From positions 3,100,001-3,164,000 of the forward strand of contig NZ_CP048834.1 of the NCBI RefSeq assembly GCF_012971745.1: DNA of 64,000 nt. Reading direction: 5' to 3'. The stretch's first letter is position 1. Each line of letters begins with the position of its first letter. The stretch comes from Starkeya sp. ORNL1 (GTDB taxonomy: Bacteria > Pseudomonadota > Alphaproteobacteria > Rhizobiales > Xanthobacteraceae). Below, one piece after another: positions 27,565 through 53,311 of this stretch. A program made the translations under genes and the position numbers. The notes under the pieces were generated by a model that saw only the letters and a list, made by a program, of their open reading frames with translations, made no database searches and was not told where the DNA came from.

Positions 27565-27580
27565 CTTGACCGATGTCAAG
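27565..27580. promoter_or_regulatory. FNR/FixK-type box 1
   Basis: CTTGAC-CGAT-GTCAAG is a perfect 6+6 inverted repeat with the 4-bp spacer of the FNR family consensus TTGAT-N4-ATCAA. It is centred about 128 bp upstream of the methyltransferase start. Member of a family of seven such sites in the EPS locus. Confidence 0.75.
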
Positions 27581-27612
27581 ACCGCGAGCGGCATTCACGA
27601 CCCTGGCTTGAC

Positions 27613-27661
27613 CATGCGCCCCCTGAGGACGTCGTCCGAACCATCCGCAAATGCCGCACAT
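27613..27661 (-). pseudogene. asnB 5' remnant (16 codons)
   Basis: The first 16 codons of an asnB copy (MCGICGWFGRRPQ...) followed by an abrupt end. It is nearly identical to the start of the intact gene at 21410, and the upstream 177 bp (27662-27838) match 21411-21588. The flanking repeat precedes an intact GT4 gene, mirroring the first copy, where asnB is intact and the GT4 broken. Confidence 0.85.
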
Positions 27662-27838
27662 CGGTGATTGCCTTTATATTTCCTGAGACGCGCCACGCGG
27701 GCCGATCGTCTGCACCTCTCAGTCTGGCGATCAGGCAGCCTCGATCGGGCAAGCAGGCGTCATGGACGAAGATGTGGATATGACGCGCGTCAACTCTGCG
27801 GCGCGGAATCCCGTCAGTTTGGGTGCCGACGCGCGCAA
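27613..27838. repeat. Direct repeat (copy 2 of 2): asnB 5' end and upstream region
   Basis: Second copy of the 226-bp segment at 21362-21588, in the same orientation. Short open frames through it are conserved only as well as the DNA as a whole, so I read it as regulatory DNA. Confidence 0.85.
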
Positions 27839-27903
27839 TCATGCCAAACGGGGCATCGAACCCCGTCTGAGCACGCATTTGCGAGCCAGGAGCAGTCCGG
27901 ATC

Positions 27904-29169
27904 ATGCCCGAAGCCACGATTGCGTCCAGAGCTCCGGCCAGCCGAGCGACCGCCATGCGCAACTCCTCTGCGTCCGCGGAAACCGAGGGCGAATTCAAGT
28001 CCACCGATCGACGGATACGATGGTGCTTCTATTCGCCCGGCCACCGCTCCGTGAGAGTGTTAGGCGGCGATACGCGCATGTCGGGCGGCGCGGAGGCGCA
28101 AGTGGCTCATCTCGCGGCCGCCATGGCGCGGCTCGGACACGAGGTGAGCCTGATCTATGGCGATGGAGAGGGGCGCTCGCCGCCAACGACCATTGCAGGC
28201 GTTCTCTGTCTCGACGCCGCGCCCTCATGGCGCAGGCCTTCGAGCACGGCCCGGCTGTGGCGGGCATTGAAGGCCGTTTCGCCAACCGTTCTCTATGCGC
28301 GCCTGCCCGACGACTTTCTCTGGATGGTTGGGCTGATGAGCCGGCTCCGCAGCCAAACGCGCTTCGTGTACGCCCTCGCGCATGACGATCACTGCAAGCC
28401 CTGGTCCACCTACAGGCATCGACCTTGGCTTCATAATCCACTCTATGCGCTCGGGCTGCACAACGCGGATGCGATCGCGATCCAGCATGAGGGGCAACGG
28501 ACCCGGCTGTCGCATCGGCTACGAGGGCGAACCTTCCCTGTGCCGAACCTCCTGAGGTCGTTCGCTTCCCGGCCTCGACCCCTGGAGGACGCCCAGATCG
28601 ACGCCCTCTGGGTTGCGCAGATCCGCCCCGAGAAGCGCATCGATCGGTTCCTCGACCTCGCCGCATCGTGCCCGGATCTCCGTTTCAGCGTCGTTGGCGG
28701 CCTGGATCCGACCTTGCCCAGCGCGACGCGGTCGGATCTCGAACGCAAGATGTGCTCGCTGAGCAACGTCGACTTCCTGGGCCCGAGGCAAGCCACTGAA
28801 ATCATTGCGCTCCTCGAGGGCAGCAAGGTTCTGGTCAATACGTCCGACGCAGAAGGCTTTCCCAACACGATGCTGGAGGCTTGGAGCGTCGGCGTTCCGG
28901 TTTTGTCTTTCTCGGTTGACCCCGGACACGTGATCGAAACGCAGGGGTTGGGACGGGTCAGCAGGACGGCCGCGGGTTTGCTGAGCGATCTGCACGTGCT
29001 CACGAAGAACGGCATCCTGAACCGCGAAATGGGCGAACGCGCACTGGATTATGTGCGGCGCCGCCACAACGCGCCGACGGTCTGCGATATGCTGGAATCG
29101 GCAGCTCTAGGCCGGCCGGTGAGCGTCCCCCTCGACGGAGCCGCTCATTTGCAGGACGCAATGCCATGA
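27904..29169 (+). CDS. GT4-family glycosyltransferase
   Basis: A 421-residue retaining glycosyltransferase of GT-B fold. The acceptor domain opens with IRWCFYSPGHRSVRVLGGD and GGAEAQVAHLAAAMARLGHEVSLIYG; the donor domain has VAQIRPEKRIDRFLDLA and the E-x7-E-type motif in VLVNTSDAEGFPNTMLEAWSVGVPVLSF. ATG at 27904 has AGGAG 11 nt upstream; ATG at 27955 is possible. It heads an operon of overlapping genes to 32.9 kb. It is the intact counterpart of the truncated gene at 21604. Confidence 0.88.
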   Translation: MPEATIASRAPASRATAMRNSSASAETEGEFKSTDRRIRWCFYSPGHRSVRVLGGDTRMSGGAEAQVAHLAAAMARLGHEVSLIYGDGEGRSPPTTIAGVLCLDAAPSWRRPSSTARLWRALKAVSPTVLYARLPDDFLWMVGLMSRLRSQTRFVYALAHDDHCKPWSTYRHRPWLHNPLYALGLHNADAIAIQHEGQRTRLSHRLRGRTFPVPNLLRSFASRPRPLEDAQIDALWVAQIRPEKRIDRFLDLAASCPDLRFSVVGGLDPTLPSATRSDLERKMCSLSNVDFLGPRQATEIIALLEGSKVLVNTSDAEGFPNTMLEAWSVGVPVLSFSVDPGHVIETQGLGRVSRTAAGLLSDLHVLTKNGILNREMGERALDYVRRRHNAPTVCDMLESAALGRPVSVPLDGAAHLQDAMP

Positions 29170-29405
29170 GCGCCAGGACCTTGGCGGCGCGGGGCGCGAT
29201 GTTCGGCACTCTCGCAGCCGGGATTTTGTTGGCAGTCGTCATCGCCGCGTTCCTCCATCTCATGGAGCCGCGAGCGCATCTGTCGCTCGCCTCATTCGCG
29301 GCCGTGATCGCCCTCGCTTATGGCGCGTTCGCCTACTTCATCTTCATGACAAAGGCCGATCGCGAGCTGGTGTCGAGCGTCCTTGCGAGGAGGAACGCGT
29401 CATGA
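29166..29405 (+). CDS. Small membrane protein, two predicted spans
   Basis: A 79-residue protein with two hydrophobic segments (MFGTLAAGILLAVVIAAFLHLM at about 12-33 and ASFAAVIALAYGAFAYFIFM at about 42-61) separated by a short polar loop, and a basic C-terminus. I do not recognise a family. It overlaps both flanking glycosyltransferase genes by ATGA junctions, so it is certainly translated with them. It might anchor a peripheral glycosyltransferase at the membrane; that is a guess from context. Confidence 0.75.
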   Translation: MSARTLAARGAMFGTLAAGILLAVVIAAFLHLMEPRAHLSLASFAAVIALAYGAFAYFIFMTKADRELVSSVLARRNAS

Positions 29406-30628
29406 GTCCCGACCCGAGGACCCGAGTTCCGGGCCACGCCGCGCCGGTGCGACGCTTCCAGCTGCCGACATTGCGGGGCATAGCAATGCCGAGCGCGGCG
29501 GATATGCATTGCGAAAGCTCCGAGGGCCGGCCCGAGCCGGTCGCAGTGCTGATCGGCCAGCTGTCGCAAGGCGGCAGCGAACGCCAGCTCTTCATGTTTC
29601 TGACCCATTGCGATCGCACGCGCTGGGCTCCGGTTGTCTACGTGTCGGGCGAGCTCGGGTTCTGGGAAGAGCATATCCGCGCCCTCGGCATCCCGGTACG
29701 GCTCCTCACGGGTGGCCGGTTCGCGAAGATGCGCCAGCTTCGTGCGGCCTGTGCAGCTCAGGGCACGAGGTACTTCTTCTCGTGGTCGTCCTACACGAAC
29801 CCGTTCGGCCTGGCCCTTCTGGGCATGGGCGTTTGGCGCATCGGCTCCTTCCGGAACGCTCTGTTCGCCGATCTGCCCGCTCGCCTCAGGCCAGCTTGGG
29901 CCTGGGCGAGCCTTTCGGCGATATCCCTCGCCGTTTGCAACTCCAAGGAAACCTACGACGAGATCGCGCTGAGAAAAGCCGCGCGTCCCAAGCCGGTTTA
30001 CATTCCCAACGGCGTCGAGGCACCAGCGACCAATCAGATCGCCGTCTGGCGCGCGGCGTGGCGCGCGCGGCTCGGCATTGGAGATGACGTGGTCCTCGTG
30101 GTGGGCGTTGGCCGCCTCGTGAAGCAGAAGCGGTTCGATCGATTCATCGAGGTTATCGAGAGGGCGCGCAAGGAATTCCCCGTGGAGGCTGTTGTCGCTG
30201 GCAAAGATTTTGGCTGCCTTCGGGACCTTGAGCGCCAAGTCGCTCAGTCGAACTTGAATGAGGTGGTTCGATTCATCGGAGCGATCCCCGACGCCCGGGA
30301 ACTGATTTCTGCCGCGGACATCCTCTTGCTGTCATCCGACCACGAAGGCATGCCCAATGTTGTGCTGGAGGCCATGTCGGCGGGCGTGCCGACCGTCGTC
30401 ACCCGGGTTAACGCTGTGGCCGATCTGATCGAGCACGGAGAAACTGGCTTCATTGCAGATCACGACGCAGACGATCTCGCGCGGCATGTGGTTCGTCTGG
30501 CCACGCACTGCGGGCTTCGTCGCCACGTCGGCGAACGCGCACGTTCCGCCGTCATGCTCCGGTACGGTTCCCGCGCCATCGCCCATCAGCTTTGGGCGTT
30601 GTGCGGCGCTAGAGACACTGGGGCTTAA
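29402..30628 (+). CDS. GT4-family glycosyltransferase
   Basis: A 408-residue GT-B enzyme. VAVLIGQLSQGGSERQLFMFL is the characteristic N-terminal GGSE motif; VVLVVGVGRLVKQKRFDRFIEVIERA opens the donor domain, and LLLSSDHEGMPNVVLEAMSAGVPTVVTRV is the donor-binding E-x7-E motif. The first about 45 residues before the fold are unusual and the true start may be internal (Met 29 or 35). Acts on the cytoplasmic face to extend the lipid-linked unit. Confidence 0.87.
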   Translation: MSPDPRTRVPGHAAPVRRFQLPTLRGIAMPSAADMHCESSEGRPEPVAVLIGQLSQGGSERQLFMFLTHCDRTRWAPVVYVSGELGFWEEHIRALGIPVRLLTGGRFAKMRQLRAACAAQGTRYFFSWSSYTNPFGLALLGMGVWRIGSFRNALFADLPARLRPAWAWASLSAISLAVCNSKETYDEIALRKAARPKPVYIPNGVEAPATNQIAVWRAAWRARLGIGDDVVLVVGVGRLVKQKRFDRFIEVIERARKEFPVEAVVAGKDFGCLRDLERQVAQSNLNEVVRFIGAIPDARELISAADILLLSSDHEGMPNVVLEAMSAGVPTVVTRVNAVADLIEHGETGFIADHDADDLARHVVRLATHCGLRRHVGERARSAVMLRYGSRAIAHQLWALCGARDTGA

Positions 30629-30632
30629 CGAG

Positions 30633-31808
30633 ATGAGACTCGCCATCTTCGTTGATCAAGTGTTTTGGCTTGATGGCTCTCGGCTCTCCACCGACGAGTC
30701 CTACATCCTGTTTCCCGCCAGCTTCAAAGAGTTCGTCGATGAAATCGTCTTTATCGGCCGGCTCTCGCCAGCCGCCGGGCGAGCTCCTTATCCTCTGGAG
30801 GGAGGAAGATTTTCCCTATTCGCCATGCCGTTCTACAAAAATCTCTATCAGCTCTGGCGCAATGACCCCCGTGTATACTGGGAAATAGCGAAAGCTGCCC
30901 GCCAGCAAGCAAAGACCTGGGATGCGCTCCTGGTCTGCGGACCCCATCCGATCGGACACATCATCGCCCGGGCATGCATCGCGCTCGGCGTTCCCGTGTT
31001 GCCGATCGTGCGCCAGAACTTCATCGAACAGATGAGTGCTCATCGGGGCGTCAAGCGCCTAGCAGCCCTGGCGGCGGCCCGGATCCTGGAATGGGATTTT
31101 AGGCGCATCGCTCGCGACCGGACGGTATTCACGGTCGGCAAGGAGATGGCCGCCGAGTATGCCCCGTTGAGCGGCCGGGTTCACAACCACTTCCCGTGTC
31201 TGGTGGACAGCGCCCAGTTCGAGGTCTTCTCGAAGATGTCGGCAGGCTCCGATCCCACGCGTCTTATTAAGGTCTGCCGGCTGGCCCCCGAGAAGGGACA
31301 CAAGTATCTCTTCGCAGCGCTCGTCGAGCTGAACCAGCGCGGTCTGCGGTGTCACGTCGATATCGTCGGCACGGGGCCCATCGAGCAGGAATTGCGAGCG
31401 ATCCTCGCAAAACTCGGAATAACCGAGCAGGTCACATTTCACGGCTATGTTCCCTATGGCCCGTCCTTGTTCGATTTGTACCAAAAGGCAGGCGCCCTCG
31501 TTTTGTCGTCGACAACCGAGGGATTCCCTCAGGTCATCAATGAATCGCTCTCCATTGGGCTTCCGACGATCGCGACCAGAGTGGGAGGGATACCCTCCTT
31601 TCTGACGCACGGCGAAACCGCGCTCTTGGTTCCGCCCCGTGATCCATCGGCCCTCGCCAGCGCGATCGAAAGCTTCGTTCGCGATGCCGAATTGCGAGAG
31701 CGGCTCAGGAATCGTGGGCGCGCTCTGATGCGCGACAATACGCTCGAAGCCAATCGCGACCGAATCTTGGAGGGCGTCCGTGAGGAAATCGCTCGGCACA
31801 AAGCATAG
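30633..31808 (+). CDS. GT4-family glycosyltransferase
   Basis: A 391-residue GT-B enzyme starting MRLAIFVDQVFWLDGSRLSTDESYILFP. The donor domain begins LIKVCRLAPEKGHKYLFAALVEL and has FHGYVPYGPSLFDLYQKAGALVLSSTTEGFPQVINESLSIGLPTIATRVGGIP. The start at 30633 lies 4 bp after the previous stop; a longer frame inside the upstream gene is rejected. It overlaps the next gene by 29 bp. Substrates are unknown. Confidence 0.88.
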   Translation: MRLAIFVDQVFWLDGSRLSTDESYILFPASFKEFVDEIVFIGRLSPAAGRAPYPLEGGRFSLFAMPFYKNLYQLWRNDPRVYWEIAKAARQQAKTWDALLVCGPHPIGHIIARACIALGVPVLPIVRQNFIEQMSAHRGVKRLAALAAARILEWDFRRIARDRTVFTVGKEMAAEYAPLSGRVHNHFPCLVDSAQFEVFSKMSAGSDPTRLIKVCRLAPEKGHKYLFAALVELNQRGLRCHVDIVGTGPIEQELRAILAKLGITEQVTFHGYVPYGPSLFDLYQKAGALVLSSTTEGFPQVINESLSIGLPTIATRVGGIPSFLTHGETALLVPPRDPSALASAIESFVRDAELRERLRNRGRALMRDNTLEANRDRILEGVREEIARHKA

Positions 31809-32895
31809 CTATCGGTCAGCCCTCCAGGACTATCCCGGCGGGATCGTTCCGGCCCGCCCGACGGTTAGCCTGGTGGTTCCGACCCACAATGAAGCCTCGG
31901 GGCTGGAGCAACTCGTCAGCGACATCATCGCCCAGGATTACGATCGGATCGTCGAGATCTTCTTCGTCGATGGTTGCTCGATAGACGGAACGTACGAGAC
32001 CTTGTTCGCCCTGGGCGGTCGGAATCGGACGTTCCGCGTCTTGCGCAATAGTAAGGGGCAGACTGCAGCGGGCATCAATCTGGCCTTCGGCCAGGCGACC
32101 GGCGATGTGGTGATACGCCTCGACGCTCATGCCCGCTTCGAGCCTGACGTGGTTTGCAAGAGCGTGGAAAGCCTCTTGCGAACGGGGGCTGCGGGCGTGG
32201 GCGCGATCGCGCGTCCGGCCGAGAGTCGGACGCTCGTCGGTCGCGCCATCGTGAGTGCGCATAGAAGCCCGTTCGGGATCGGGGTTGCGAAGTTTCGCAA
32301 GGAGGGGGCCGAGGGCTGGACGGATACGGTCTGGAACGGTTGTTATTGGAGGCACGTCGTCGATCGGGTCGGGCCTCTGCGCGAAGATCTTCACCGGGCC
32401 GAAGACAATGATTTCAACGCCCGTGTTCGCGGCCTCGGCTACGGGCTCTATCTGTCTCCCGACATTCGCGCCCTCTATCAGCCACGGCATACGTTAGGGG
32501 GCTTGTGGCGACAGTATTTCGCCAATGGCGTGGGGGTCGCGCGGGCAGCCCTCAACAGCTCGGGAGCGGTGACGATGCGACACTTCGCGCCGCTCGGTCT
32601 GGTCCTGCTTGTGGGCCTGCCGGCATTGCTTTCGTTGGTTTCTCCGCCGGCGCTGCTCGTCGCAGAGACAGCCCTGCTCGGCTACGGGGCCGTCCTGCTC
32701 CTGTCCGTGCTGATTGCAGGGCGCAAAGAGCCGGCCCGTCACCTCGCGCTCCTTCCAGCGGTGCTGGCGACGCTCCATCTCAGCTATGGATTGGGGACGA
32801 GCTGGGGGTTCGTTCGGGGCGCGTTCGACCGAATGAGCCCGGGCAAGGGCACCCGCATCCCTGCAGGACAATCGCGTGAACGAGCGGGTCTGTAG
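31780..32895 (+). CDS. GT2-family glycosyltransferase, ExoA-like, with membrane C-terminus
   Basis: A 371-residue protein with an inverting GT-A domain: VSLVVPTHNEASGLEQLVSDI, FFVDGCSIDG, and VVIRLDAHARFEPD carrying the metal-binding DxD-like Asp, with AEDNDFNARVRGLGY as the catalytic ED region. Two to three C-terminal hydrophobic segments (LGLVLLVGLPALLSLVS onward) match ExoA-type succinoglycan glycosyltransferases. GTG start at 31780 overlaps the upstream gene, indicating coupling. Last gene of the operon from 27.9 kb. Confidence 0.87.
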   Translation: MRKSLGTKHSYRSALQDYPGGIVPARPTVSLVVPTHNEASGLEQLVSDIIAQDYDRIVEIFFVDGCSIDGTYETLFALGGRNRTFRVLRNSKGQTAAGINLAFGQATGDVVIRLDAHARFEPDVVCKSVESLLRTGAAGVGAIARPAESRTLVGRAIVSAHRSPFGIGVAKFRKEGAEGWTDTVWNGCYWRHVVDRVGPLREDLHRAEDNDFNARVRGLGYGLYLSPDIRALYQPRHTLGGLWRQYFANGVGVARAALNSSGAVTMRHFAPLGLVLLVGLPALLSLVSPPALLVAETALLGYGAVLLLSVLIAGRKEPARHLALLPAVLATLHLSYGLGTSWGFVRGAFDRMSPGKGTRIPAGQSRERAGL

Positions 32896-32954
32896 CGCGA
32901 CCGCGGCTGTTCGGCCCCCGACGAGCTCTGGCCGGCGGGACCGCGCCGGACCTT

Positions 32955-32970
32955 GTTGACGAGCGTCAAG
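32955..32970. promoter_or_regulatory. FNR/FixK-type box 2
   Basis: GTTGAC-GAGC-GTCAAG, centred about 72 bp before the beta-helix protein ATG. A class II activator position (-41.5) would put transcription start near 33004. Confidence 0.7.
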
Positions 32971-33034
32971 AGCCCCACCCGTCGGACATGCGACTGGCTG
33001 TCGGTGTGACAGGCAAGAACTTGGAGGCCCCAGC

Positions 33035-34405
33035 ATGAAGCGCCGCTACGTGCTATCGCGTCGTTCACTTATCCGAAGCGTGGGTACGGGACTACTGGCC
33101 TCCAGTGGTTTGGAGGCGTGCTCTGCCGTGAGCGCCAACGGTCGTGACAAGACATCCCACTACGTCGCGCCGACCGGTGACGACGTTGCTGGTGATGGAT
33201 CGATCGAGTCGCCTTGGGCGACCTTGCAAAGGGCCTATTCGGCCGCGCGGGCCGGTGCCACGATCCTCCTGCGCGGCGGGACCTACGATCTCACCGGCCC
33301 GTCCGGCATCCATCTCACCGGCCACTCCGGGACATCCAAAAATCCCATCACGATCCGGAACCACGCCGCCGAAGTCGTCGTCCTGAATGGTTCCGGCCTG
33401 GCCTCGGCCAGGGATAGCTTCAGCAGCCCGACCAATGCGGGTGGCTACGTAATATCGCTCTACAACGTGTCCAACATCATCATCAGAGGCCTGGACATCC
33501 GCAATGGACCCATGGGGGGCGTCATCCTCAATGGGGGACGCTCGCTCGCTGAAGGGTCGCACAGCAATATTTTTCAGGACCTCACAATCCATGGCAATGG
33601 CTGGAATGGATCGGAGGGCAAGGGCTTTTCGCTGTTCGGCTACGCGACCGACAATCTGCTGGTGAATTGCGATAGTTACTTCAACGCCGATCTCGCGCAG
33701 ACCAACGCGGACGGATATCAGATCAGCCCTTGGAGCCCGGCTTCGACGGGCAACGCCCTGAGAGGCTGCCGTGCCTGGCAGAACTCCGACGACGGCTTCG
33801 ATCTGTTCAACGTGAACGACAATACCCTGCCCTCGCCCGTCGTGCTGAGCCGCTGTTGGGCGTGGAGGAACGGCTTCCTTGCTGATGGATCGCAGGGCAA
33901 GGGCGAAGGGAACGGCTTCAAGCTGGGCGGTCAACGGCAAGCGGCCAAGGGCAACACCAGCGGAACCTCCGGCGGGCATACCGTGACCGACTGCTACGCC
34001 TGGAGCAACGTTCTGAACGGCTTCACGGATAATTCCGCGACGATCGCCAACTCGGTCGTAAACTGCACCGCCTACGACAATTGCCGCAGCACGGACGAGA
34101 ACGGACGCCCGTCGGAGACCTGGACATACGATTTCTACTTTCCGACGCCGGCAGGACACGTGCTGACGGGCAACGTCGCGTTTCAACCGGCTGGCCGAGA
34201 GGCGTGGGTTGCGGCCGAGAATACCGACCGAAACAACTCCTGGACGCAATCGCCTCCCGTGTCCTCGGCAAGCTTCGTCTCGCTCGCCGACGCTGCTGCG
34301 ACGGGTCGACGGATGGCGGACGGATCCTTGCCCGAAACGGCGTTTCTCCGGTTGGCCGCCGGGTCAAACCTGCGGAAGACGGGACCAGGCGCGGCTCCAT
34401 TGTAG
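33035..34405 (+). CDS. Exported parallel beta-helix protein, polysaccharide-lyase-like (Tat/lipoprotein candidate)
   Basis: A 456-residue protein. The N-terminus has a twin-arginine motif (SRRSLIR) and a hydrophobic stretch ending in the lipobox-like LEAC, so it is probably exported, perhaps as a lipoprotein. The body shows right-handed beta-helix repeats rich in Asn and Gly (NIIIRGLDIRNGPMGGVIL, GNALRGCRAWQNSDDGFDLF, GNGFKLGGQRQ), as in PL9-type pectate/exopolysaccharide lyases. It is a close relative of the RTX protein at 54069, which uses another route out. Likely role: trimming or degrading the EPS in the periplasm or at the surface. Confidence 0.82.
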   Translation: MKRRYVLSRRSLIRSVGTGLLASSGLEACSAVSANGRDKTSHYVAPTGDDVAGDGSIESPWATLQRAYSAARAGATILLRGGTYDLTGPSGIHLTGHSGTSKNPITIRNHAAEVVVLNGSGLASARDSFSSPTNAGGYVISLYNVSNIIIRGLDIRNGPMGGVILNGGRSLAEGSHSNIFQDLTIHGNGWNGSEGKGFSLFGYATDNLLVNCDSYFNADLAQTNADGYQISPWSPASTGNALRGCRAWQNSDDGFDLFNVNDNTLPSPVVLSRCWAWRNGFLADGSQGKGEGNGFKLGGQRQAAKGNTSGTSGGHTVTDCYAWSNVLNGFTDNSATIANSVVNCTAYDNCRSTDENGRPSETWTYDFYFPTPAGHVLTGNVAFQPAGREAWVAAENTDRNNSWTQSPPVSSASFVSLADAAATGRRMADGSLPETAFLRLAAGSNLRKTGPGAAPL

Positions 34406-34490
34406 TCGTCCGTGACGATCGGTGATCAGGCGCGCTGACGCGACATGGTTGGAGAGTTTGTGCCGGCGAGCTTAGTCCGGCTGAGGAGCG

Positions 34491-35519
34491 TCAAGTTTCC
34501 GTCCGTTCGGAGACGAGCGCGGAAACTTCTGCATAAAGGGTTTCGGCCGTCGCGGCGGGACTGAATGCGCGCGCCCGGACCCTGCCCTGCTCCGCCATGT
34601 AGTTCACTGCGGCTCGGTTCTCAGGATCGAGAATCCTGCCAATCGCCATTACGTATTCCTTTACCGTCCCATCTACGACAAGCGCGTTTTCACCGTCGCT
34701 CGCGTAATCGCGCACCCCGAGGGTGCCTACCACAATCGTAGGCTTGCCCATGTACATACTGTTCAAAAGCGTTTGCTGTCCGATCGATCGGCGCATTCCA
34801 CGCCGCAGTGGCACAATGACGGCACGCGCTGTCCGCATCAGACGGATGAACTCGGCATGCGATGTCCGGGTTCGCTTTGAAAGCACAAGCTCCACGTTTG
34901 ACGGAAGCGGGGTCGGGCTGGTCCACGCGGTCGCAAGCACAAAACGGGTTTGCGGAAAGCATCGAGCTGCTTCGACGAGCGGCAAATAATCCCGCCCGCT
35001 GTCCCCGCCTGCGAAAATATGCCCGCTGGTGGGCGCTTCCTCCCCCGCGAGCTCTTTGTCGGTGACGTGGTGGTAACAGAGGCACACACCGATCTTGCTG
35101 GCGCTAACCCCCCACAGACCCGCGAGGAGATCGCGGTCGTCCGCGGACCACACGACGTAACGGTCTATGCCGCGGTCGGCGAGACGGACGACAACCTTCT
35201 GGATGAACCGCCGCAGCCCGCGGGCGGGCTCCCAGATGTCGCCCCCGATAACGACCGGCGGGCGGTGACGCTTCCCGATCAGGCCGAGAAGAATGCAGGC
35301 GATCAAGTCGGGGTGAATCCGACCGGACGAGCCGTTGAGCAGCAACGCGGAGTACTTTCGTGAAGCTTTCAAGATCTCCCAAGTCGTCATCACCTCTTTC
35401 CAGAGCGGGGAGCGCGGGAGCGCGCGATCGAGTGTGCGGACACGCTCGCCCCAATCATGGAACCGCAGAGTCGAGGCAATCACGGGCGATACTTGCACGG
35501 CGAGGCCTTCAAAAGACAT
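34491..35519 (-). CDS. GT4-like glycosyltransferase, paralogue of the 39.05-kb gene
   Basis: A 342-residue protein. SGHIFAGGDSGRDYLPLVEAARCFPQTRFVLATAW opens the donor domain; RTRTSHAEFIRLMRTARAVIVPLRRGMRRSIGQQTLLNSMYMGKPTIV is the donor-binding part. The protein at 39054-40136 shares these segments almost word for word. The acceptor domain is shortened compared with typical GT4 enzymes. ATG at 35519 is chosen from alignment of the two; the open frame to 35951 is mostly antisense. An FNR-type box lies 78 bp upstream. Confidence 0.8.
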   Translation of the reverse strand: MSFEGLAVQVSPVIASTLRFHDWGERVRTLDRALPRSPLWKEVMTTWEILKASRKYSALLLNGSSGRIHPDLIACILLGLIGKRHRPPVVIGGDIWEPARGLRRFIQKVVVRLADRGIDRYVVWSADDRDLLAGLWGVSASKIGVCLCYHHVTDKELAGEEAPTSGHIFAGGDSGRDYLPLVEAARCFPQTRFVLATAWTSPTPLPSNVELVLSKRTRTSHAEFIRLMRTARAVIVPLRRGMRRSIGQQTLLNSMYMGKPTIVVGTLGVRDYASDGENALVVDGTVKEYVMAIGRILDPENRAAVNYMAEQGRVRARAFSPAATAETLYAEVSALVSERTET

Positions 35520-35596
35520 GGTCGCGGACTTCGGAAATCTATCACTATTTGGCGGCCGCAACTTGCAGAACATATCCCAGTAACGTGGGAGAAACA

Positions 35597-35612
35597 TTTG
35601 ACACCCGTCAAG
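35597..35612. promoter_or_regulatory. FNR/FixK-type box 3 (divergent gap)
   Basis: TTTGAC-ACCC-GTCAAG between the divergent glycosyltransferase (minus) and nucleotidyltransferase (plus) genes. It is centred about 85 bp from the minus-strand start and 150 bp from the plus-strand start, so it may serve either or both. Confidence 0.7.
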
Positions 35613-40136: not shown

Positions 40137-40153
40137 GCGGGCGCTCCCGTCTT

Positions 40154-45500: not shown

Positions 45501-46705
45501 GACGACACCCTCACGGACAAGTTCGATGAAGCAGCGGCATGGAGGCTCTGAAAAGAGGCTGCTCCGGCAAATCCCGGCTCGGCCTCCAAAGCTTCGGCGA
45601 GACAGCACGTGACGGTCTCGACATCCGCGGCCTCCATACGTGGATGCAGCGGCAATGTGAGTTCGCGTGCTGTAAAATCCTCCGTCTTCGGTAGCGACAC
45701 GTTCGGATAGAGATCGCGGTAGTAGGAGAGACGGTGCGTCGGCGGATAATGGATGGTCGTCTGGATTCCAGCCTCACGCAGACGATCGATGACGTTCTGC
45801 CGTTCTACCGACCGCGGCAGCAGAACCGGCATGATATGGTGCACAGAGGCCCGTCCGGCATCGAACGGGACCGACACAATGGGGCATCGGGCTTCGATCG
45901 AGCGCCGATAGAACTGCGCAAGGTCTTTTCGCTTCGCGTTCCACCGCTGGACGTGACCGAGTTGAACAAGGCCGATTGCAGCCCTCAATTCGTCCAATCG
46001 ATAGTTGAAACCCAGCATCGTCACGTCATAGATCGGGTTTTTGCCCGACCGTCTTTGAAAGGTGCCGCTGGTCAGCCCATGCCCGCGTGCCCGTCGAATC
46101 CCGTCGCGAAGCTTCTCATCGCCGGCCAGGATCGCTCCACCCTCCGCCGTGGTCATGTTCTTGTTGCCGTAGAAGCTGAAGGCGGCCGCGACACCCAGGG
46201 TGCCGACCCCCGGGAGCACGGTGGCATGCGCCGCGTCCTCGACGATCAGTAAGCCACGTTCCGACGCGAACGCCTGCCATGGCTTGGGATCGATAAGGTA
46301 GCCGGCGAAGTGCACGAGGATGATCGCCTTCGTTCGACTGGTGCACTTCGCGGCCGCATCCTGCAGGCACATCAGCGGCGTATCCGTCGACTCAATATCG
46401 ACAAAAACCGGCTTCGCTCCGACATAGAGGACGCAATTCGCAGTCGCCACGAAGGTCAGCGCGGGCACGAGCACCTCGTCGCCCGGACCGATCCCAAGCG
46501 CGTGCAGGATCAAATGGAGGCCAGCCGTGCAGGAACTCACCGCCACGGCATCGTCGGCACCGTGCGCCTGGGCGAACGCCCGTTCGAAGGCGTTGACCCT
46601 GTCACCCATCGTGATCCAGCCGCTGTCGATGACCTCGGCCAGGGCAGCTTTCTCTTCCCATCCGAGCGTAGGCTCCGAGACAAGCAACATGGAATGATCT
46701 CGCAT
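45497..46705 (-). CDS. DegT/DnrJ/EryC1 aminotransferase (LegC-like)
   Basis: A 402-residue PLP aminotransferase for sugar nucleotides. It opens with VSEPTLGWEEKAALAEVIDSGWITMGDRVNAFE; AVSSCTAGLHLILHALGIGPGDEVLVPALTF is the PLP phosphate site, IVEDAAHA the ring-contacting Asp, and FSFYGNKNMTTAEGG the Schiff-base Lys. Likely aminates the 4-keto-6-deoxy sugar made by the neighbouring LegB-like enzyme. ATG at 46705 or 46690 may be the start. Its stop overlaps the sugar-transferase start (ATGA). Confidence 0.85.
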   Translation of the reverse strand: MRDHSMLLVSEPTLGWEEKAALAEVIDSGWITMGDRVNAFERAFAQAHGADDAVAVSSCTAGLHLILHALGIGPGDEVLVPALTFVATANCVLYVGAKPVFVDIESTDTPLMCLQDAAAKCTSRTKAIILVHFAGYLIDPKPWQAFASERGLLIVEDAAHATVLPGVGTLGVAAAFSFYGNKNMTTAEGGAILAGDEKLRDGIRRARGHGLTSGTFQRRSGKNPIYDVTMLGFNYRLDELRAAIGLVQLGHVQRWNAKRKDLAQFYRRSIEARCPIVSVPFDAGRASVHHIMPVLLPRSVERQNVIDRLREAGIQTTIHYPPTHRLSYYRDLYPNVSLPKTEDFTARELTLPLHPRMEAADVETVTCCLAEALEAEPGFAGAASFQSLHAAASSNLSVRVSS

Positions 46706-46740
46706 TTTTGGCGCGCGGGTTGCGGCAGCTGCGAGGACGG

Positions 46741-47457
46741 CTAGCCCGCCATCGCGACAATGGACGGCGCCCGCTCTTCCCACTTGATTTCCTGGGCGCT
46801 GTGAAAATCTTCGACCCGGCCGACATCGAGCCAGAGCCCCTCATGCTTGTAGACATGGATCGGCACGCCCTTGTCCAACAAGCAATGCGCAAGATCATCA
46901 AGTCCAAAGGCTATGCCTGACGGTATATATTTGATAATGTCCGGCTCCATGCAGTACACACCCATGCTGACGCAGTTCGAAAGCGTCGGCTTTTCTGTAA
47001 ATTTCGTAACGGTACCATCCTGATCTTCGATGATTCCGAAGTCCATCCGCGTGGAACGGGCAGTCGTCGCGATGGTCAGGAGGGCGCCGTGCTTTCGGTG
47101 GGTCATGGCGAGCGCATGCAGGCTGAGATCCGTGAGAATGTCGCCGTTCAACATCAGGAACGTGCTGTCCAGGGCCTCGCGCAACAGGGTGAGTGGCCCG
47201 ACAGTCCCGAGCGGCTCTATTTCTTGCGTATACTTGATGTTGATGCCCCACTGTTGTCCGTCACCGCAGAAACTCCTGATCAAATGACCGAGATATCCCG
47301 TGGTAATGTAGACGTCTTCCACGTTGTTCCGTCGGAGCCACTGCAGCAGAAGCTCCAGAACCGGCCGCGCGCCGATCGGCATGAGCGGTTTCGGAAGGAC
47401 CGAAGTGTAAGGCATCAGCCGTGTGCCCCTACCTCCTGCTTGAATGACAGCTTTCAC
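46741..47457 (-). CDS. Sugar-1-phosphate nucleotidyltransferase
   Basis: A 238-residue NDP-sugar synthase: MKAVIQAGGRGTRLMPYTSVLPKPLMPIGARPVLE is the full signature, LMLNGDILTDL has the metal-binding Asp, FTEKPT and LWLDVGRVEDF complete the family pattern. GTG start with an ideal GAGGAGG 5 nt upstream. First gene of the nucleotidyltransferase-DegT-sugar transferase-LegB-ExoF operon. In the Campylobacter legionaminate route a guanylyltransferase precedes LegB, so it could supply that substrate here; nucleotide preference is not readable. Confidence 0.87.
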   Translation of the reverse strand: MKAVIQAGGRGTRLMPYTSVLPKPLMPIGARPVLELLLQWLRRNNVEDVYITTGYLGHLIRSFCGDGQQWGINIKYTQEIEPLGTVGPLTLLREALDSTFLMLNGDILTDLSLHALAMTHRKHGALLTIATTARSTRMDFGIIEDQDGTVTKFTEKPTLSNCVSMGVYCMEPDIIKYIPSGIAFGLDDLAHCLLDKGVPIHVYKHEGLWLDVGRVEDFHSAQEIKWEERAPSIVAMAG

Positions 47458-47508
47458 TTGTGCCTCCTCTGATGTGACGCGACGTTATGTCCGGCAAAAT
47501 CTGCCCGT

Positions 47509-47524
47509 CTTGATCGCCATCAAG
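47509..47524. promoter_or_regulatory. FNR/FixK-type box 5 (divergent gap)
   Basis: CTTGAT-CGCC-ATCAAG is a perfect palindrome and exact match to the FNR consensus. It is centred about 60 bp before the nucleotidyltransferase start (minus) and 171 bp before the Wzz/ExoP-like start (plus). The minus-strand class II geometry would give a transcript starting near 47475. Confidence 0.8.
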
Positions 47525-47687
47525 TTGCATCGGATGAGCGCACGCTAGCGTTCGGTCGAGTGTTGCGTCTACGCTAGTGCGTCCTTCTGCTGGATGCGCA
47601 GGCAGAGGGTGCGGCGCTCACCATGTCGATGACTTACACCACAAGGTCTAGACGTCCTTTCCGCACGAGCAGAAAAGAGTCCATGTG

Positions 47688-49907
47688 ATGAGACTTGGTG
47701 CGACCGAGTTTATCTCAGCCGGTCGCTCCTCGGGAGCGGCCTTCTCGGAGCTTTCGGACGAAACGCCGCGCAATCGGGATGTCAAGATCCATAACATTTT
47801 AGCTCTCGTCTGGCGGCGCAAGGCGCTCATCGCCTATTTCGCACTTGCGGGAGCGCTCCTGACTGGCGTCGCGGCGTTCGTCTTGCCGCCGAAATACACC
47901 GCTACGTCACAATTCGTGATCGAGCCTACGCAGGCCCAGATCGCGGCCGGCGTGTTGGATGCAGTCGTCGACACTCATATCGCCACCATCACGTCGGATG
48001 CTCGCCTGCGCGCGGTGCTGGCGAGCCTGTCAGGTCTGCCGGAGTACGAGGCGACAGCGCCTTCGAGTTCAACCGAGTCCGAGCCTGCATTCGAGGCTCG
48101 CCTGCGCGAATGGCTGCTCGACGCCGTGGCGCAGCTCCGAGCGGCGGTCTCGACACCTCCAGTCAATCAGGTGCAGTCGGATGGCCCAATAGGGCTCGCG
48201 CCTCCCAGTCTCGACGAGGCGAAGCTCTCACTCCTGGTTCGGCAAGAGCGGCGCTCGAGCGTTGTTTCGATTAGCTACACGAGTCCCAACCCGGTCAGAG
48301 CCGCCCTGATCGCCAACCAGATCACCGCCTTTCATTTGAATACACTGTCGCAGCGCAAGCAGCTCGAGCTGGAAAATTCGAAGCAATGGTTGGATCAGCG
48401 CCTCGTCCAGGCGCAACTCGAGTCGGACGCCGCGGACGAGGCGCTGCGCGCCTACGCGTCGGTCCATGGAGCCGGCATCCCGGAGGGCGTGAAGGGAGAG
48501 CCGATCGCGGAGATCGTCCAACGGCTCGAGGGTGTCCGGAACGAGCTGGCGAAAAGGGAGGCTGAGTTGGAACGCGTCAGGAGTCTGCGGAGCGCGGAAG
48601 CGGGTGCGGACACCCTGATCGCCCCCCTGACTTCCCCGTCTCGGACCGCACGCGTCGCGCAGGACGCCCCCGTATCCGATGTGCCGGACACCACTGCGAC
48701 CGTGCCCCAGGGCATTTCGGAGTCGCGGCCGGCCCTGGCTCGAGGGGTCGAGGTCGAGGTGGAGCGGCTCGAGCACGACGTCGGCGTGCTGCGGATTCAG
48801 GCGCGCTCGCTCGCGGAACACGCCGCGTCGCTGCAGACCGTATCGGGATCTATCCTCGCCCAGCGGAAGGAGTTTCAAACCCTTGAACGAAGAGCCGCTT
48901 CGGCGGCGGACAGCGTCAAGGAGCTCAGCCGGCTCAGAGGAGAGTACAAGGATCCTCCCGCAACCGGAGTGCAGTTGCTTGCGCGTGCCTCCGTGCCCCT
49001 GCACCCGAGCTCGCTCAGTCCTTACCTCTATATCCCCGCTGCGGTCATAGCCTTCGCCGTGCTGGGCGGGGTAGCCGCTTCAACGCGAGAGCATTGGGAC
49101 CGGACGTTCCGGCAGCCCCGTGAAATCGAGAGCGTGCTGGGCGTTCCATGCATCGGTCTCATCCCCGATGCTCGTCGCTCGCCCAATCGGCTGCGCCGGC
49201 GCGCGCTCAAGGCCTTTGCCTATCGGAATGCGTTCGCGATTGGGACCGCGTGCGCCATGACGCTGGCCGTCACCAGGCACCGCAAGGAGGGCGGCAAGAT
49301 CATCCTCCTAACTTCAAGTCATCCCGCCGAGGGCACTACGGCGCTCGCGGAAGGACTCGCGTCCTGTCTCCGGAGCCTGCGGCAACGTGTTCTCCTCGTC
49401 AGCGCGGATGCCTCGCAAGAGCGCATTCATCCGACGCCGCCAGGCGGGACACCGAGTGGCCCCGACGAGGGTTTTACCGCCCCGTCCTATTCGGGCGAAC
49501 AAGACTTGGGTTTCGACCGCCTGAGCGTGACGGAACTCACTGGCGGTGACACGACATTGCTCGTTGGCGCGACGTTGATCGCAGGCCTGAAAGGGGTGCA
49601 GGAGCGTTACGACTATATTGTCATGGACGCCCCGGCGGTGTTCGTATCGCCCGGCGTTCCCGTACTCGCGAGCATGGCCGACGCGGTCCTCTTCGCGGTG
49701 AGATGGGGGAGTACGACCCGCGACGTTGCTGCGAACGCGTTGGCGTTGCTGAGGAAGCTGGCGACCATCGGAGGGGAGCCCCCGCCGAACGTTTTGGCCG
49801 TGCTGACCCTCGTCGACCTCAAGTCCTATGTGCGGTATCGGCCCGGAGATGCAGCCGAATTCTTGTACGACCATCGGACGAGACCGGAGGCCAAGTTGTT
49901 GTCCTAA
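47688..49907 (+). CDS. Polysaccharide co-polymerase, Wzz/ExoP-like with degenerate kinase P-loop
   Basis: A 739-residue inner-membrane protein. N-terminal Wzz domain (ILALVWRRKALIAYFALAGALLTGVAAFVLPPKYTATSQFVIEP), long periplasmic coiled coil, second span (LYIPAAVIAFAVLGGVAA, about 445-465) and a C-terminal BY-kinase-like domain. The Walker A position reads TSSHPAEGTTALAEGLA: the invariant Lys of EGKST is gone, and Walker A' is VLLVSADAS. Walker B (YDYIVMDAP) remains. The Tyr-rich tail is short. It probably controls chain length without normal kinase activity. ATG 47688 follows GTG 47685. Confidence 0.87.
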   Translation: MRLGATEFISAGRSSGAAFSELSDETPRNRDVKIHNILALVWRRKALIAYFALAGALLTGVAAFVLPPKYTATSQFVIEPTQAQIAAGVLDAVVDTHIATITSDARLRAVLASLSGLPEYEATAPSSSTESEPAFEARLREWLLDAVAQLRAAVSTPPVNQVQSDGPIGLAPPSLDEAKLSLLVRQERRSSVVSISYTSPNPVRAALIANQITAFHLNTLSQRKQLELENSKQWLDQRLVQAQLESDAADEALRAYASVHGAGIPEGVKGEPIAEIVQRLEGVRNELAKREAELERVRSLRSAEAGADTLIAPLTSPSRTARVAQDAPVSDVPDTTATVPQGISESRPALARGVEVEVERLEHDVGVLRIQARSLAEHAASLQTVSGSILAQRKEFQTLERRAASAADSVKELSRLRGEYKDPPATGVQLLARASVPLHPSSLSPYLYIPAAVIAFAVLGGVAASTREHWDRTFRQPREIESVLGVPCIGLIPDARRSPNRLRRRALKAFAYRNAFAIGTACAMTLAVTRHRKEGGKIILLTSSHPAEGTTALAEGLASCLRSLRQRVLLVSADASQERIHPTPPGGTPSGPDEGFTAPSYSGEQDLGFDRLSVTELTGGDTTLLVGATLIAGLKGVQERYDYIVMDAPAVFVSPGVPVLASMADAVLFAVRWGSTTRDVAANALALLRKLATIGGEPPPNVLAVLTLVDLKSYVRYRPGDAAEFLYDHRTRPEAKLLS

Positions 49908-49972
49908 TGCTTTCCTGACGCGCTCCGTCCGCGCTACGGGCTCCTTATTGGACGGTGAGCGGACGGAAACCC

Positions 49973-50833
49973 ATGTTCGCGACGATTTCTCAGATCGCGG
50001 CATTCGCAGCTGCGCCCTCTAACCTTCTTCCCGCGATCGGCCTGCTCGGCGTGCTCATCGCACTCGCTCGCCGGGGGCGTGGTGGCCTTTGGCTAGCCTG
50101 CCTAGGCATCGGCGGGACACTGATTGCTGGAATCCTGCCGATTGCCAATATAATGATCCGTCCACTAGAGGAGCGCTTTCCAAAGTATCAGGAAGACGGG
50201 CGCCCGATCGACGGCATCATCGTCTTGTCAGGCGCCGTGGACCTAGCGAAATCGCTTGATCGAGACGAGTTTTCTCTGAATGGGGCGGCCGAGAGGTTCG
50301 TGTATTTTCTGGAGATGGCCCGGCGCCATCCGGAGGCACGCCTGGTTTATACTGGGGGAGGCTTAGGTGATCCGTCGCGATCGGAAGCGCAACTGGCGGC
50401 CGAGCAGATGGAGAGGCTGGGATTGTCGACGGAACGCCTCCTCATCGAGACGGCGTCGCGGACGACTTGGGACAACGCGCGGAACACGAAAGCTCTTTTG
50501 GGTGCACGGGCGCAAGGTCGATGGGTTCTCATAACGTCCGCATGGCACATGCCGCGCGCAATGGGCTGCTTTCAGACGGTCGGGCTGGCGGTCATCCCTT
50601 ATCCGGTCGACTACCAGACCCGTGGACCAATGGATTCGCTTCGACCGTTCACCATCGTGGGACACGGCCTTCAGCGGCTGGATATGGCCGCCAAGGAGTG
50701 GCTTGGCTTGTTCGGGTATCGCATCTCTGGACGGACGCGTTCTTTTTTCCCGAGTCCGAACTTGATAGACTTCCCGCAACGCGACCTGGCGCCCGCAGCC
50801 ACGAGCGCTATCGCAGGGCGCGCGCCTTTGTAA
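49973..50833 (+). CDS. YdcF/SanA-family (DUF218) membrane-associated protein
   Basis: A 286-residue protein with two N-terminal hydrophobic segments and a DUF218 domain: GIIVLSGAVD, RLVYTGGGLGDPSRSEAQLAAEQMERLG, LIETASRTTWDNARNTKALL and WVLITSAWHMPRAMGCF. Family members influence envelope barrier function; the enzymatic role is unsettled. Presence within an EPS locus, directly after the co-polymerase, suggests a link to export or envelope maintenance. ATG at 49973 is preferred over GTG at 49955. Confidence 0.82.
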   Translation: MFATISQIAAFAAAPSNLLPAIGLLGVLIALARRGRGGLWLACLGIGGTLIAGILPIANIMIRPLEERFPKYQEDGRPIDGIIVLSGAVDLAKSLDRDEFSLNGAAERFVYFLEMARRHPEARLVYTGGGLGDPSRSEAQLAAEQMERLGLSTERLLIETASRTTWDNARNTKALLGARAQGRWVLITSAWHMPRAMGCFQTVGLAVIPYPVDYQTRGPMDSLRPFTIVGHGLQRLDMAAKEWLGLFGYRISGRTRSFFPSPNLIDFPQRDLAPAATSAIAGRAPL

Positions 50834-51144
50834 AATGAGGCCTCGGCGCTCGGTTATCGAGCCTTTCGGAAAGTGCCGTCGGATCTGGCCCGAACAGCGG
50901 CTAGCGCCTCGTAGTTAGAGACCGGGGGAGATCGCGCCGCAGGTGCGATTCACCGCCGTCGGCTGAACGCACTTTCAGTCACTGCTTCCCATCTTGATGC
51001 CGATCAAGTTGAAAGATGTGATGCGGTTAATCTCCCGAACGCTCTCAACCGCGCAAGCCGAACAATGAGGGATACACTCGCGACGAAGGGCAAGTAATAG
51101 TCCTTATGGTTCGAATCAGCTGAAAAACACTACGTGAGGCAGGC
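50834..51144. other. Intergenic region upstream of the AraC-family gene
   Basis: A 311-bp gap that becomes AT-rich toward the AraC-family start. It contains FNR-type box 6 (50993-51008). No gene is supported. Confidence 0.5.
50993..51008. promoter_or_regulatory. FNR/FixK-type box 6
   Basis: CTTGAT-GCCG-ATCAAG, a perfect palindrome, centred about 144 bp upstream of the AraC-family ATG. Confidence 0.78.
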
Positions 51145-52212
51145 ATGATTCGAGGGCAACTAGATACAACAACTGAATACACAAATAATCCCGATACTGA
51201 TGTATCAGCTGTAACGATGCTAGCGGCCAAAGAACTGGTCGCCAGTAGCATTGACCCTACGCCACTGCTCACGAAATCGCGGCTGCCATCCCCTCTTTCC
51301 AGCCACACGTTGTGGCGCGCCCCTGTTCGTAGTCAGTCGATCTTTCTTGATTTGGCCGCCGATGCCCTTAAGGACGATTTACTCGGCTTCCATCTTGCGC
51401 TGAGCTTTGATTTTCGGACACTTGGTTTTATTTATTACTTAATAGCTTCTGCTGAAAACCTTGGGGAAGCGCTCGCAAATGGGGAAGAATACTCAGCTTC
51501 CCTGAACGAACCGGTGCGGCTCCGAAGCGGCAGAACGAGCGGTGTGTCCGTCGAACTGAGTTACGAAGGTCTGGATCCGCATCCGGACCGCCATTTCTCG
51601 GAGTTCTGGATCACGGGCACGCTTAGGCTGTGCCGCGACTTCACGAGCCGCGAGTTGGTCCCGACCTCCGCGACCATGGCCCATCTGCGGGCAGGCAAAG
51701 TGCCTGAGATGGACCGCTATTTCGGTCGGGAGGTCGTCTTCGGCGCGGACAGGGACCTTCTCGAATTCGGAAAGGACGCGGGCGACCTCCCGCTCGTCAC
51801 TCACGATCCGTACCTGCATCAGCTTCTGAGGCGGCTGCAAAGCAGCGAGACCACGATGCGCGCTCCGGAGCCCGATTCCTTGCGGCTTCGCGTGGAAAAG
51901 GCGATCGCCGCACGTCTACGCTACGGGACGGCCACGGTCGACGCCGTCGCAAGGGACCTCGGAACGAGCGCACGCACCCTGACACGGAAGCTTGCAGAGG
52001 GTGGAATGAGCTTCAGCGGCATTCTCGACGGCGTGCGAGCCACCATCGCTGTTCGATACGTGCGAAACGACGAGCCCACCATGTCGCAGCTCGCCTGGCT
52101 GCTGGGCTATCGCGAGCCGAGCACCTTGGTCCGGGCATTCAAGCGATGGACGGGCAAAACGCCCACGGAGTTTCGGCGTGAGCTCCGGCGAGGCAGGTTC
52201 GACGACACCTGA
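51145..52212 (+). CDS. AraC-family transcriptional regulator (OruR/ArgR-type)
   Basis: A 355-residue regulator with an N-terminal effector-binding domain of the 'arabinose-binding' type (DALKDDLLGFHLALSFDFRTLGFIYYLIASAENLGEAL) and two C-terminal HTH motifs: ATVDAVARDLGTSARTLTRKLAEGG and TMSQLAWLLGYREPSTLVRAFKRWTGKTPTEFRRE. The 5' third is clearly AT-richer than its 3' end. Start has GAGG 5 nt upstream. Its own 3' end is repeated at 53490-53646 on the far side of fkbM. Regulated target unknown. Confidence 0.87.
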   Translation: MIRGQLDTTTEYTNNPDTDVSAVTMLAAKELVASSIDPTPLLTKSRLPSPLSSHTLWRAPVRSQSIFLDLAADALKDDLLGFHLALSFDFRTLGFIYYLIASAENLGEALANGEEYSASLNEPVRLRSGRTSGVSVELSYEGLDPHPDRHFSEFWITGTLRLCRDFTSRELVPTSATMAHLRAGKVPEMDRYFGREVVFGADRDLLEFGKDAGDLPLVTHDPYLHQLLRRLQSSETTMRAPEPDSLRLRVEKAIAARLRYGTATVDAVARDLGTSARTLTRKLAEGGMSFSGILDGVRATIAVRYVRNDEPTMSQLAWLLGYREPSTLVRAFKRWTGKTPTEFRRELRRGRFDDT

Positions 52213-52225
52213 CTCGGGGCGGCCG
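52069..52225. repeat. Direct repeat (copy 1 of 2): araC-type gene 3' end
   Basis: About 157 bp covering the second HTH coding segment and 13 bp past the stop, matched by 53490-53646 in the same orientation. The two copies flank the FkbM methyltransferase gene. Confidence 0.85.
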
Positions 52226-52389
52226 TCCGCTTCAGCGCCGGCAGCAACGGCGCAAGCAGCCGCCACTCCGCATCCGTTAAATCCGTTTGTATCTAGGTCC
52301 CGCGTGACTATGCTGCCAGCGGGTGGGTCCACACCGCTCATACCAAGATGGCCTGAACAACCCGCTGGAATCACGAGCGCCCCAGCAGC

Positions 52390-53187
52390 TCAACCCTTTC
52401 GAGACGGACTCTTAGGCCTCGCAAAGGCGACCATCCGTCCGCATGACCTGTCAGCAATAAAATCGAATCCTGAAGCCAGGATCGTGCGGATCACTGTCGA
52501 CACGCCGTCATCGCCGATGATGCTCGGATGCAACTCTCCGCACAGCACCCGGACCTCCGGCGGAATCGCGACATTGAAAATCTCGGCTTCCGCACCTTCG
52601 ACATCGAAGACCACAAACGTGGGACGGATCTCCCGAAGCAAACGTGACATGGAAATCATGGCGACCAGCTCAGACTTCGCGGCGCCTTCTCGACGATGAA
52701 CGGACGACGACAAATTATTCACGTTGAAGAAGAACTCTCGGCAGCCATCCTCCTGTCCAACCGCAATATTGTGGAGGTTTGGTTTCACGTCATTCGCCTC
52801 AAAGACGGATTTAATCGTCCCCAAGAGTTCGGGATTTGCCTCGAACGTATGGAGATTCCTGCTGTCGGAAAGCCGCTGCGCGATGAACGTCGACACGACC
52901 CCAAGGCCCGACCCGAGCTCCAGGACGATATCGTCAGGCCGGATCAAGTGCCTTATCGTTTCCATTTCGCCGCGCTCGTGCAGCCCTCGGTAGAAATCGC
53001 GTCGACGAGATCGAAGAACAGGCGATGATCCAAATGGAATGCGAATATTTTCATACATGTACATGTTTGGATTAAGAATGACAGAAACCGCATACCTTAC
53101 CTTAAACCTAAAGTAAGTTATGAGTTCTTGAAAAAATGTAAGATCATTCGCATCGCCGCGGCTCAATCCAACCGATCCTCGATCCAT
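52390..53187 (-). CDS. FkbM-family methyltransferase
   Basis: A 265-residue SAM methyltransferase of the FkbM type: IRPDDIVLELGSGLGVVSTFIAQRL (motif I), HTFEANPELLGTIKSVFEAN, LHNIAVGQEDG, and PTFVVFDVEGAEAEIF, the conserved DVEGAE motif. It probably O-methylates a sugar of the EPS. Its opposite strand and flanking direct repeats of the araC 3' end suggest it was inserted as a cassette. An FNR-type box lies about 116 bp upstream of its ATG. Confidence 0.87.
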   Translation of the reverse strand: MDRGSVGLSRGDANDLTFFQELITYFRFKVRYAVSVILNPNMYMYENIRIPFGSSPVLRSRRRDFYRGLHERGEMETIRHLIRPDDIVLELGSGLGVVSTFIAQRLSDSRNLHTFEANPELLGTIKSVFEANDVKPNLHNIAVGQEDGCREFFFNVNNLSSSVHRREGAAKSELVAMISMSRLLREIRPTFVVFDVEGAEAEIFNVAIPPEVRVLCGELHPSIIGDDGVSTVIRTILASGFDFIADRSCGRMVAFARPKSPSRKG

Positions 53188-53295
53188 GGCAGCATCTTTC
53201 TTAGTCGTTCTGCCTTCTGGCTCAAACGAAGGCTAGCGCGCCATTGGTCGTTGGCACACCACGCCCAAGGGGTCCCACGTCGGCTGCGTGGCCCT

Positions 53296-53311
53296 CTTGA
53301 TATCCGTCAAG
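53296..53311. promoter_or_regulatory. FNR/FixK-type box 7
   Basis: CTTGAT-ATCC-GTCAAG, centred about 116 bp upstream of the FkbM methyltransferase start. Confidence 0.72.

Follow-up and report, generated by a model that had tools for sequence, protein, structure and literature searches.

Palindromes with the core TTGAY-N4-RTCAA are sites of the FNR/FixK type. The closest described systems for the locus analyzed here are FixK and FixK2, FNR, FnrL and ANR and, among regulators acting on exopolysaccharide (EPS) genes, Clp of Xanthomonas, a global CRP-type protein with a CRP-type half-site. We studied a window of 64,000 nucleotides from Starkeya sp. ORNL1 (contig NZ_CP048834.1, positions 3,100,001 to 3,164,000; coordinates below are those of the window unless a genome position is given). 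It holds an EPS locus (19494..63999, recognized by Pfam and NCBIfam matches and continuing beyond the window) next to a gene for a Crp/Fnr-type regulator (18425..19126, minus strand; 233 amino acids as listed, with an uncertain start). Palindromic boxes with the above core are spread through the locus, and they are very probably the operators of this local protein, which would be a dedicated EPS activator apart from the FixLJ-FixK circuit. The sites, their enrichment and conservation, their spacing to −10 elements and their linkage to the regulator can be read directly from the DNA, and it is from these that we infer binding and activation.

An earlier, sequence-only reading of this DNA had listed seven boxes of the form CTTGAY-N4-RTCAAG, and all seven were recovered. 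Five are exact, and those at 32955 and 35597 deviate solely at the left outer base (G and T, respectively). In the 14-base form TTGAY-N4-RTCAA, referred to below as the core, they are the sole matches in the 64 kb, so the statement that catabolic and mobile-element regions lack such boxes holds for this form; an eighth core site (C1:3166564) lies 2.5 kb beyond the window end. With up to two mismatches to the 16-mer the window contains 14 matches, against 5.84 expected. As had also been claimed, all seven boxes fall outside genes, here as called by a simple hexamer-type gene caller trained on fetched DNA of the same genome. The box at 35597 is borderline, since it overlaps by one base the called start of a minus-strand glycosyltransferase gene, and a longer open reading frame (34491-35951) would span it.

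The genome-wide check of enrichment that the same reading had asked for was carried out by pattern scan. The exact 16-mer occurs eight times in the 6.29-Mb genome (twice in a reversed control), and five of these occurrences are in the EPS locus, whereas the best 26-kb count over 20,000 random placements was four. The core is found at 24 sites (reversed control, four), eight of them within 40 kb here; the maximum in 20,000 random trials was five. For the intergenic DNA of the locus (7.9 kb) a first-order model predicts about 0.018 core sites; seven are observed. When one mismatch to the 16-mer is allowed, the genome has 48 sites and the control 31, so that one-mismatch matches elsewhere are near chance level. 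All eight such sites in the locus are intergenic, as compared to 7 of the 40 elsewhere.

The EPS boxes carry a further feature that was absent from the sequence-only reading, namely an A or T directly outside the 16-mer. This base was found on 16/16 sides at the genome's own EPS sites and on 5/20 sides at ten other intergenic core sites, a comparison from which the copy at genome position 2908806 was dropped. Counted by site, A/T stands on both sides in 8/8 EPS boxes and in 1/10 of the others (p = 4e-4, to be taken, like other p-values here, as a guide only, because neither the two sides of a site nor corresponding sites in relatives count as independent). A separate count was kept for five core sites called as coding, of which one (2430858) lies at the start of a gene; these have A/T on 4/10 sides. 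The non-EPS core sites, which include those of a cbb3-type operon and of a superoxide-dismutase-like gene, mostly have G/C just outside; the names of these genes, and those of FixL and FixJ below, were read from translated starts, while the FixK-like protein itself was searched. The preference extends to related genomes, with A/T on 55/56 sides over six genomes (first set, 28 core sites, being all those in the fetched stretches) and on 122/126 sides in a second set (63 sites, 11 genomes). We also considered the outer C..G of the 16-mer as a family-wide mark and rejected it: it is present on 13/16 sides in this species, but C occupies only 24% of the half-sites in the second set. The flanking A/T is therefore preferred as the mark of these sites.

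The local protein has a Crp-type winged helix-turn-helix (HTH) domain (Pfam HTH_Crp_2 50.3 bits, cut-off 27; Crp 37.6 bits, cut-off 21). Its cyclic-nucleotide family match is below threshold (cNMP_binding 23.9 bits, cut-off 27.5), and an N-terminal cNMP-like beta roll is present in the predicted fold, which is most similar to chains of FixK2, FNR and CRP. The nearest structure to the AlphaFold2 model (mean predicted local distance difference test score 79.3, below 50 in residues 1-35) is FixK2 (4i2o), the best solved relative by sequence as well as by fold. FixK and FixK2 are also similar in their box core, in the −10 register seen at the genome's fixN site (genome position 2437326), and in being without an FNR-type cysteine set. 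The local protein differs from them in its score (77.1 bits against the NCBIfam FixK cut-off of 300, NF050806), in an ET[AV]CR recognition helix in place of ETVSR, in a shorter stretch before the dimer helix (an alignment gap), in its position in EPS loci and in the base outside its boxes. With FNR, FnrL and ANR it shares HTH similarity and the site core. However, its only cysteines are scattered at residues 7, 111, 192 and 213, the FNR-type N-terminal cluster and central cysteine were not found in the window protein, and its scores (FnrL 44.1 bits, cut-off 300; Fnr 41.5 bits, cut-off 228) are too low. From Xanthomonas Clp it is set apart by being tied to one locus, by its half-site and by the sub-threshold cNMP domain. 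The proposal of the sequence-only reading that the boxes belong to FNR, FixK or ANR, with an oxygen signal, is not supported in the form given there, in view of the missing cysteine set and NCBIfam matches, the E-x-x-C-R helix and the different outer base.

Across seven orthologs only cysteines 111 and 192 are invariant (four of the alignment rows being cut at the N-terminus), and C111 together with ET[AV]CR is present in 14/14 profile matches, including the window protein, whose own recognition helix reads ETACR. Ten Crp-type HTH matches in the genome exceed the cut-off, and the regulator gene lies about 1 Mb from that of the FixK-like protein. Seven of the ten were inspected, the other three being the regulator and two weak matches. 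The helix could be recognized in two, the FixK-like protein (4124735, gene at 4124726-4125424, ETVSR) and that at 4192152, and both have E-x-x-S-R. The recognition-helix cysteine alone was rejected as a diagnostic mark, as three other proteins (in L060, L061 and L066) also carry ET[LV]CR; around L060 and L066 no EPS protein of the window was matched by BLAST, except for a response-regulator match in L066. A further group of loci (L035-L056), from Ensifer/Sinorhizobium and other taxa, encodes FixK-like proteins that are more distantly related and mostly have ETVSR, and many of these loci have several TTGAY-N4-RTCAA sites. In the two inspected for genes (L039 and L049) the neighbors resemble universal stress proteins and the like, which reads as an FNR-type stress island.

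Many of the EPS boxes are followed by a −10-like element at a fixed distance. In the first set, from which the non-core near sites of Bosea robiniae (65859 and 93951) were excluded, TANNNT appears at offset 20-23 on 23/56 sides, as compared to about 0.3 per offset elsewhere. In the second set it appears at offset 21 on 29/126 sides, and 0-3 times at every other offset. Counting sites with TANNNT in register on at least one side gives 17/28 and 32/63, or 49/91, and none of the 16 box-bearing genomes is without such a site. In sequence, these putative promoters have the layout of class II Crp/Fnr-activated promoters, in which the box is centered at about −41.5 and the −10 element stands in a fixed register.

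The clearest case in the window is the box CTTGATCGCCATCAAG (47509..47524) in the divergent promoter of an NTP-transferase gene (minus) and the Wzc gene (plus), where −10-like elements stand on both sides, each at offset 22: TAGCGT for Wzc (47546..47551, plus) and TAACGT on the NTP-transferase side (47482..47487, minus). Upstream of an AraC-type regulator gene (51145-52212, plus) the box CTTGATGCCGATCAAG (50993..51008) is followed at offset 20 by TAATCT (51028..51033, plus). The box TTTGACACCCGTCAAG (35597..35612), between the divergent glycosyltransferase gene (minus) and a nucleotidyltransferase-like gene (plus), has TANNNT at offset 23 on its minus side; this element falls within the glycosyltransferase gene as called, whose start would need to be further in. 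The remaining four boxes are without TANNNT in register. These are CTTGACCGATGTCAAG (27565..27580), which precedes a methyltransferase gene (26734-27444, minus) by 121 bp and has on its minus side, at offset 21, only the imperfect TACTGA; GTTGACGAGCGTCAAG (32955..32970), upstream of a lyase-like gene (33035-34405, plus); CTTGATAGCGGTCAAG (36698..36713), upstream of an aminotransferase gene (36809-37801, plus); and CTTGATATCCGTCAAG (53296..53311), between an FkbM-type methyltransferase gene (minus) and an RTX lyase-like gene (54030/54069-55778, plus).

The boxes recur in relatives that have the regulator. A scan of genome contigs found close orthologs in Rhizobiales bacterium 2SD (85% identity), Bosea sp. 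BK604 (84%) and B. robiniae (70%), whose EPS loci contain four (of 21 genome-wide), three (of 14) and three (of 13) core boxes, respectively; those of BK604 are the only three exact 16-mers among the matches listed for its genome, in which exact ones rank first. Over the four genomes compared, the AraC-gene promoter has a box in 4/4, with TANNNT at offset 20 in 3/4. The NTP-transferase/Wzc promoter likewise has a box in 4/4, with TANNNT at offset 21-22 on 7/8 sides. A box at the promoter of the first lyase-like gene was found in 3/4 (the window, BK604 at 208237 and 2SD at 338412). In these matching boxes the arms are conserved, and the spacers and flanks are altered. Strain 2SD also has seven core sites in 38 kb outside its EPS locus (G030 contig C7:37112-75161). 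In the other 29 genomes of the genus the regulator is absent (matches of 27-34% identity, and one genome without any), no close Wzc was found (22-32% identity in any match), and exact boxes number 0-5 per genome, with at most two within 26 kb.

An order-wide search of 397 genomes added two orthologs, in genomes G403 (48%) and G275 (44%); the former match had one TAG flagged inside it in this search, and none in the profile match. Their loci share with the window, by BLAST, mainly sugar-nucleotide, sugar-transferase and secretion genes, and contain six core boxes over 34 kb (G403) and four over 31 kb (G275), all intergenic as called and with no others in the 100 kb examined in each; genome-wide, G403 has 52 core sites and G275 has 30. 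A search of 391 genomes of the family with a seven-member profile retrieved 14 ortholog matches, of which 11 were new; they come from nine genera, and boxes are present in eight of these. Ortholog genomes were chosen by the regulator protein alone and boxes checked afterwards: 16 of the 17 genomes with an ortholog (at least 42% identity) have at least three core boxes near the regulator, among EPS-type genes. Within 25 kb of the regulator the 11 new genomes have 63 core sites (three more distant ones were dropped from the second set), against 4.7 expected from three sites in a 340-kb control of 17 stretches from nine family genomes. Of the 63, 53 are outside genes as called. The co-occurrence in 16/17 genomes makes the local Crp/Fnr protein, by sequence, the best candidate binder. 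The sequence-only reading had proposed control of several transcripts of the locus by a single Crp/Fnr-type protein, and this has good support from the clustering, placement and conservation of the boxes, from their −10 spacing and from this association.

Could the boxes have arisen by chance clustering, or as copies of one repeat element? This is extremely improbable. Two of the genome's sites, C1:3166564 and C1:2908806, do sit in copies of a single segment (87-89% identity over 550 and 201 bp, the latter at 89%). The seven window sites have seven distinct spacers and different flanks, and repeat copies were rejected as their source; random placement never reached the observed counts, the first-order expectation is exceeded by far, and boxes are kept in relatives. 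Several other observations do weigh against assigning the boxes to the local protein as activator operators. TANNNT in the class II register is missing at 42/91 sites overall and at 5/8 of the genome's own sites (it is present at 3/8 sites and 4/16 sides), and own sites of this kind may have a different spacing, depend on a weaker −10 or be inactive. Upstream of the regulator gene itself the window has no box at up to three mismatches, while B. robiniae has one with one mismatch about 100 bp upstream; we make no claim of autoregulation. Ten of the 63 second-set sites are inside genes as called. Genome G681 has an ortholog near a Wza homolog, yet the contig, 67.5 kb in full, is free of core boxes, and L034, on a contig of equal length and probably from the same metagenome-assembled genome, is also boxless in 20.6 kb. 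Within the genus, regulator and EPS locus come and go together, so that linkage to the regulator is indistinguishable from linkage to the locus. Finally, the core is common to FixK, and the cell's own FixK (ETVSR) could therefore bind too.

Crp/Fnr proteins can repress, and the five own sites without a class II −10 would suit a local protein that represses the EPS genes; we nevertheless regard this as unlikely, because a TANNNT that follows the box at a fixed distance of some 21 bp marks the register of an activator, with the box in place of the −35 element. A similarly small chance is left for the boxes being ordinary FixK/FNR sites through which the FixLJ-FixK circuit switches EPS by oxygen, the local Crp/Fnr gene being incidental. 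The genome does have a FixK-like gene whose neighbors read as FixL and FixJ, and such a site is carried by a putative cbb3-type operon, in a promoter that has the same −10 offset. However, a plain FixK regulon was rejected on the outer base of the EPS boxes, which is unlike that of the genome's FixK-type sites; in addition, box clusters go with the local regulator across the ortholog genomes, and 28 of the 29 other genus genomes have Crp/Fnr relatives and yet so few exact boxes. An intermediate possibility, doubtful though better placed than these, is that both proteins use the sites: most binding would be by the local regulator, and FixK would share some of the boxes and so tie EPS to oxygen in a secondary way. 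The shared core, the related recognition helices and the common class II register would allow this, whereas the difference in outer-base preference, seen site by site, speaks against it.

In our reading the regulator and its orthologs are a FixK-related subfamily of EPS activators, each dedicated to its locus. A dimer of the local protein would bind an 18-bp palindrome, W-N-TTGAY-N4-RTCAA-N-W (N being mostly C in this species), and would occupy the boxes before several EPS transcription units. At many sites it would act with RNA polymerase as a class II activator, placed some 41.5 bp before the transcription start, an arrangement that would leave the −10 element 21-22 bp past the box end; at the NTP-transferase/Wzc promoter one symmetric box could serve both directions. 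As to the signal, iron-sulfur sensing of the FNR type is unlikely since the regulator lacks the needed cysteines, and cAMP is unlikely since the cNMP match is weak. Some other Crp/Fnr signal may act, and thiol redox through C111 and C192 is one possibility. More tentatively, the orthologs may form an unrecognized EPS-dedicated Crp/Fnr subfamily, in which oxidation of the invariant C192 of the recognition helix (a serine in FNR-type proteins) and of C111 could switch binding and thereby gate EPS by redox state. If the assignment is true, a co-inherited, locus-specific activator with its own site dialect would explain how the regulation of EPS loci is kept despite gene content and surroundings that differ between genomes, and the serine-to-cysteine change in the recognition helix, together with the shifted operator, would allow one to test directly by what means a pair of Crp/Fnr proteins separate their targets in one cell. 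The box at C1:2908806, which adjoins an acyltransferase gene about 220 kb away from the locus, may also be bound by the regulator.

At its left end the locus is preceded by the gene for a NarL-type response regulator (17623-18279) and then the Crp/Fnr gene. Upstream of the latter (about 19170-19280, minus strand) there is a dense run of short CTA/TAG-rich repeats, such as TAGCCCTAAAGGCTA and CTACCCCTTTAG, mostly absent from the corresponding regions of BK604 and 2SD; these repeats could be a site array for the neighboring response regulator. The locus encodes an asparagine-synthase-like (AsnB-like) protein, Wzy, a Wzx-like protein, several glycosyltransferases, Wza, Wzc and an initiating sugar transferase, together with a DegT aminotransferase, nucleotidyltransferases, epimerases, a dTDP-sugar isomerase and the AraC-type regulator. 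A type I secretion pair is encoded as well, and so are two beta-helix proteins of Pel9A-like type, of which one carries RTX repeats. This RTX-tailed, lyase-like protein is followed by the ABC and HlyD genes of the secretion pair (54069-60693), which suggests an exported EPS-cutting enzyme. On one side the locus is flanked by genes for a phage terminase small subunit and a DUF3987 protein (12933-16421) and on the other by a phage-type integrase gene (L111:5384-6601), and the flanking genes appear different in BK604, 2SD and B. robiniae. Because of these phage-type genes on both sides and the differing flanks in relatives, the EPS locus may be mobile between genomes.

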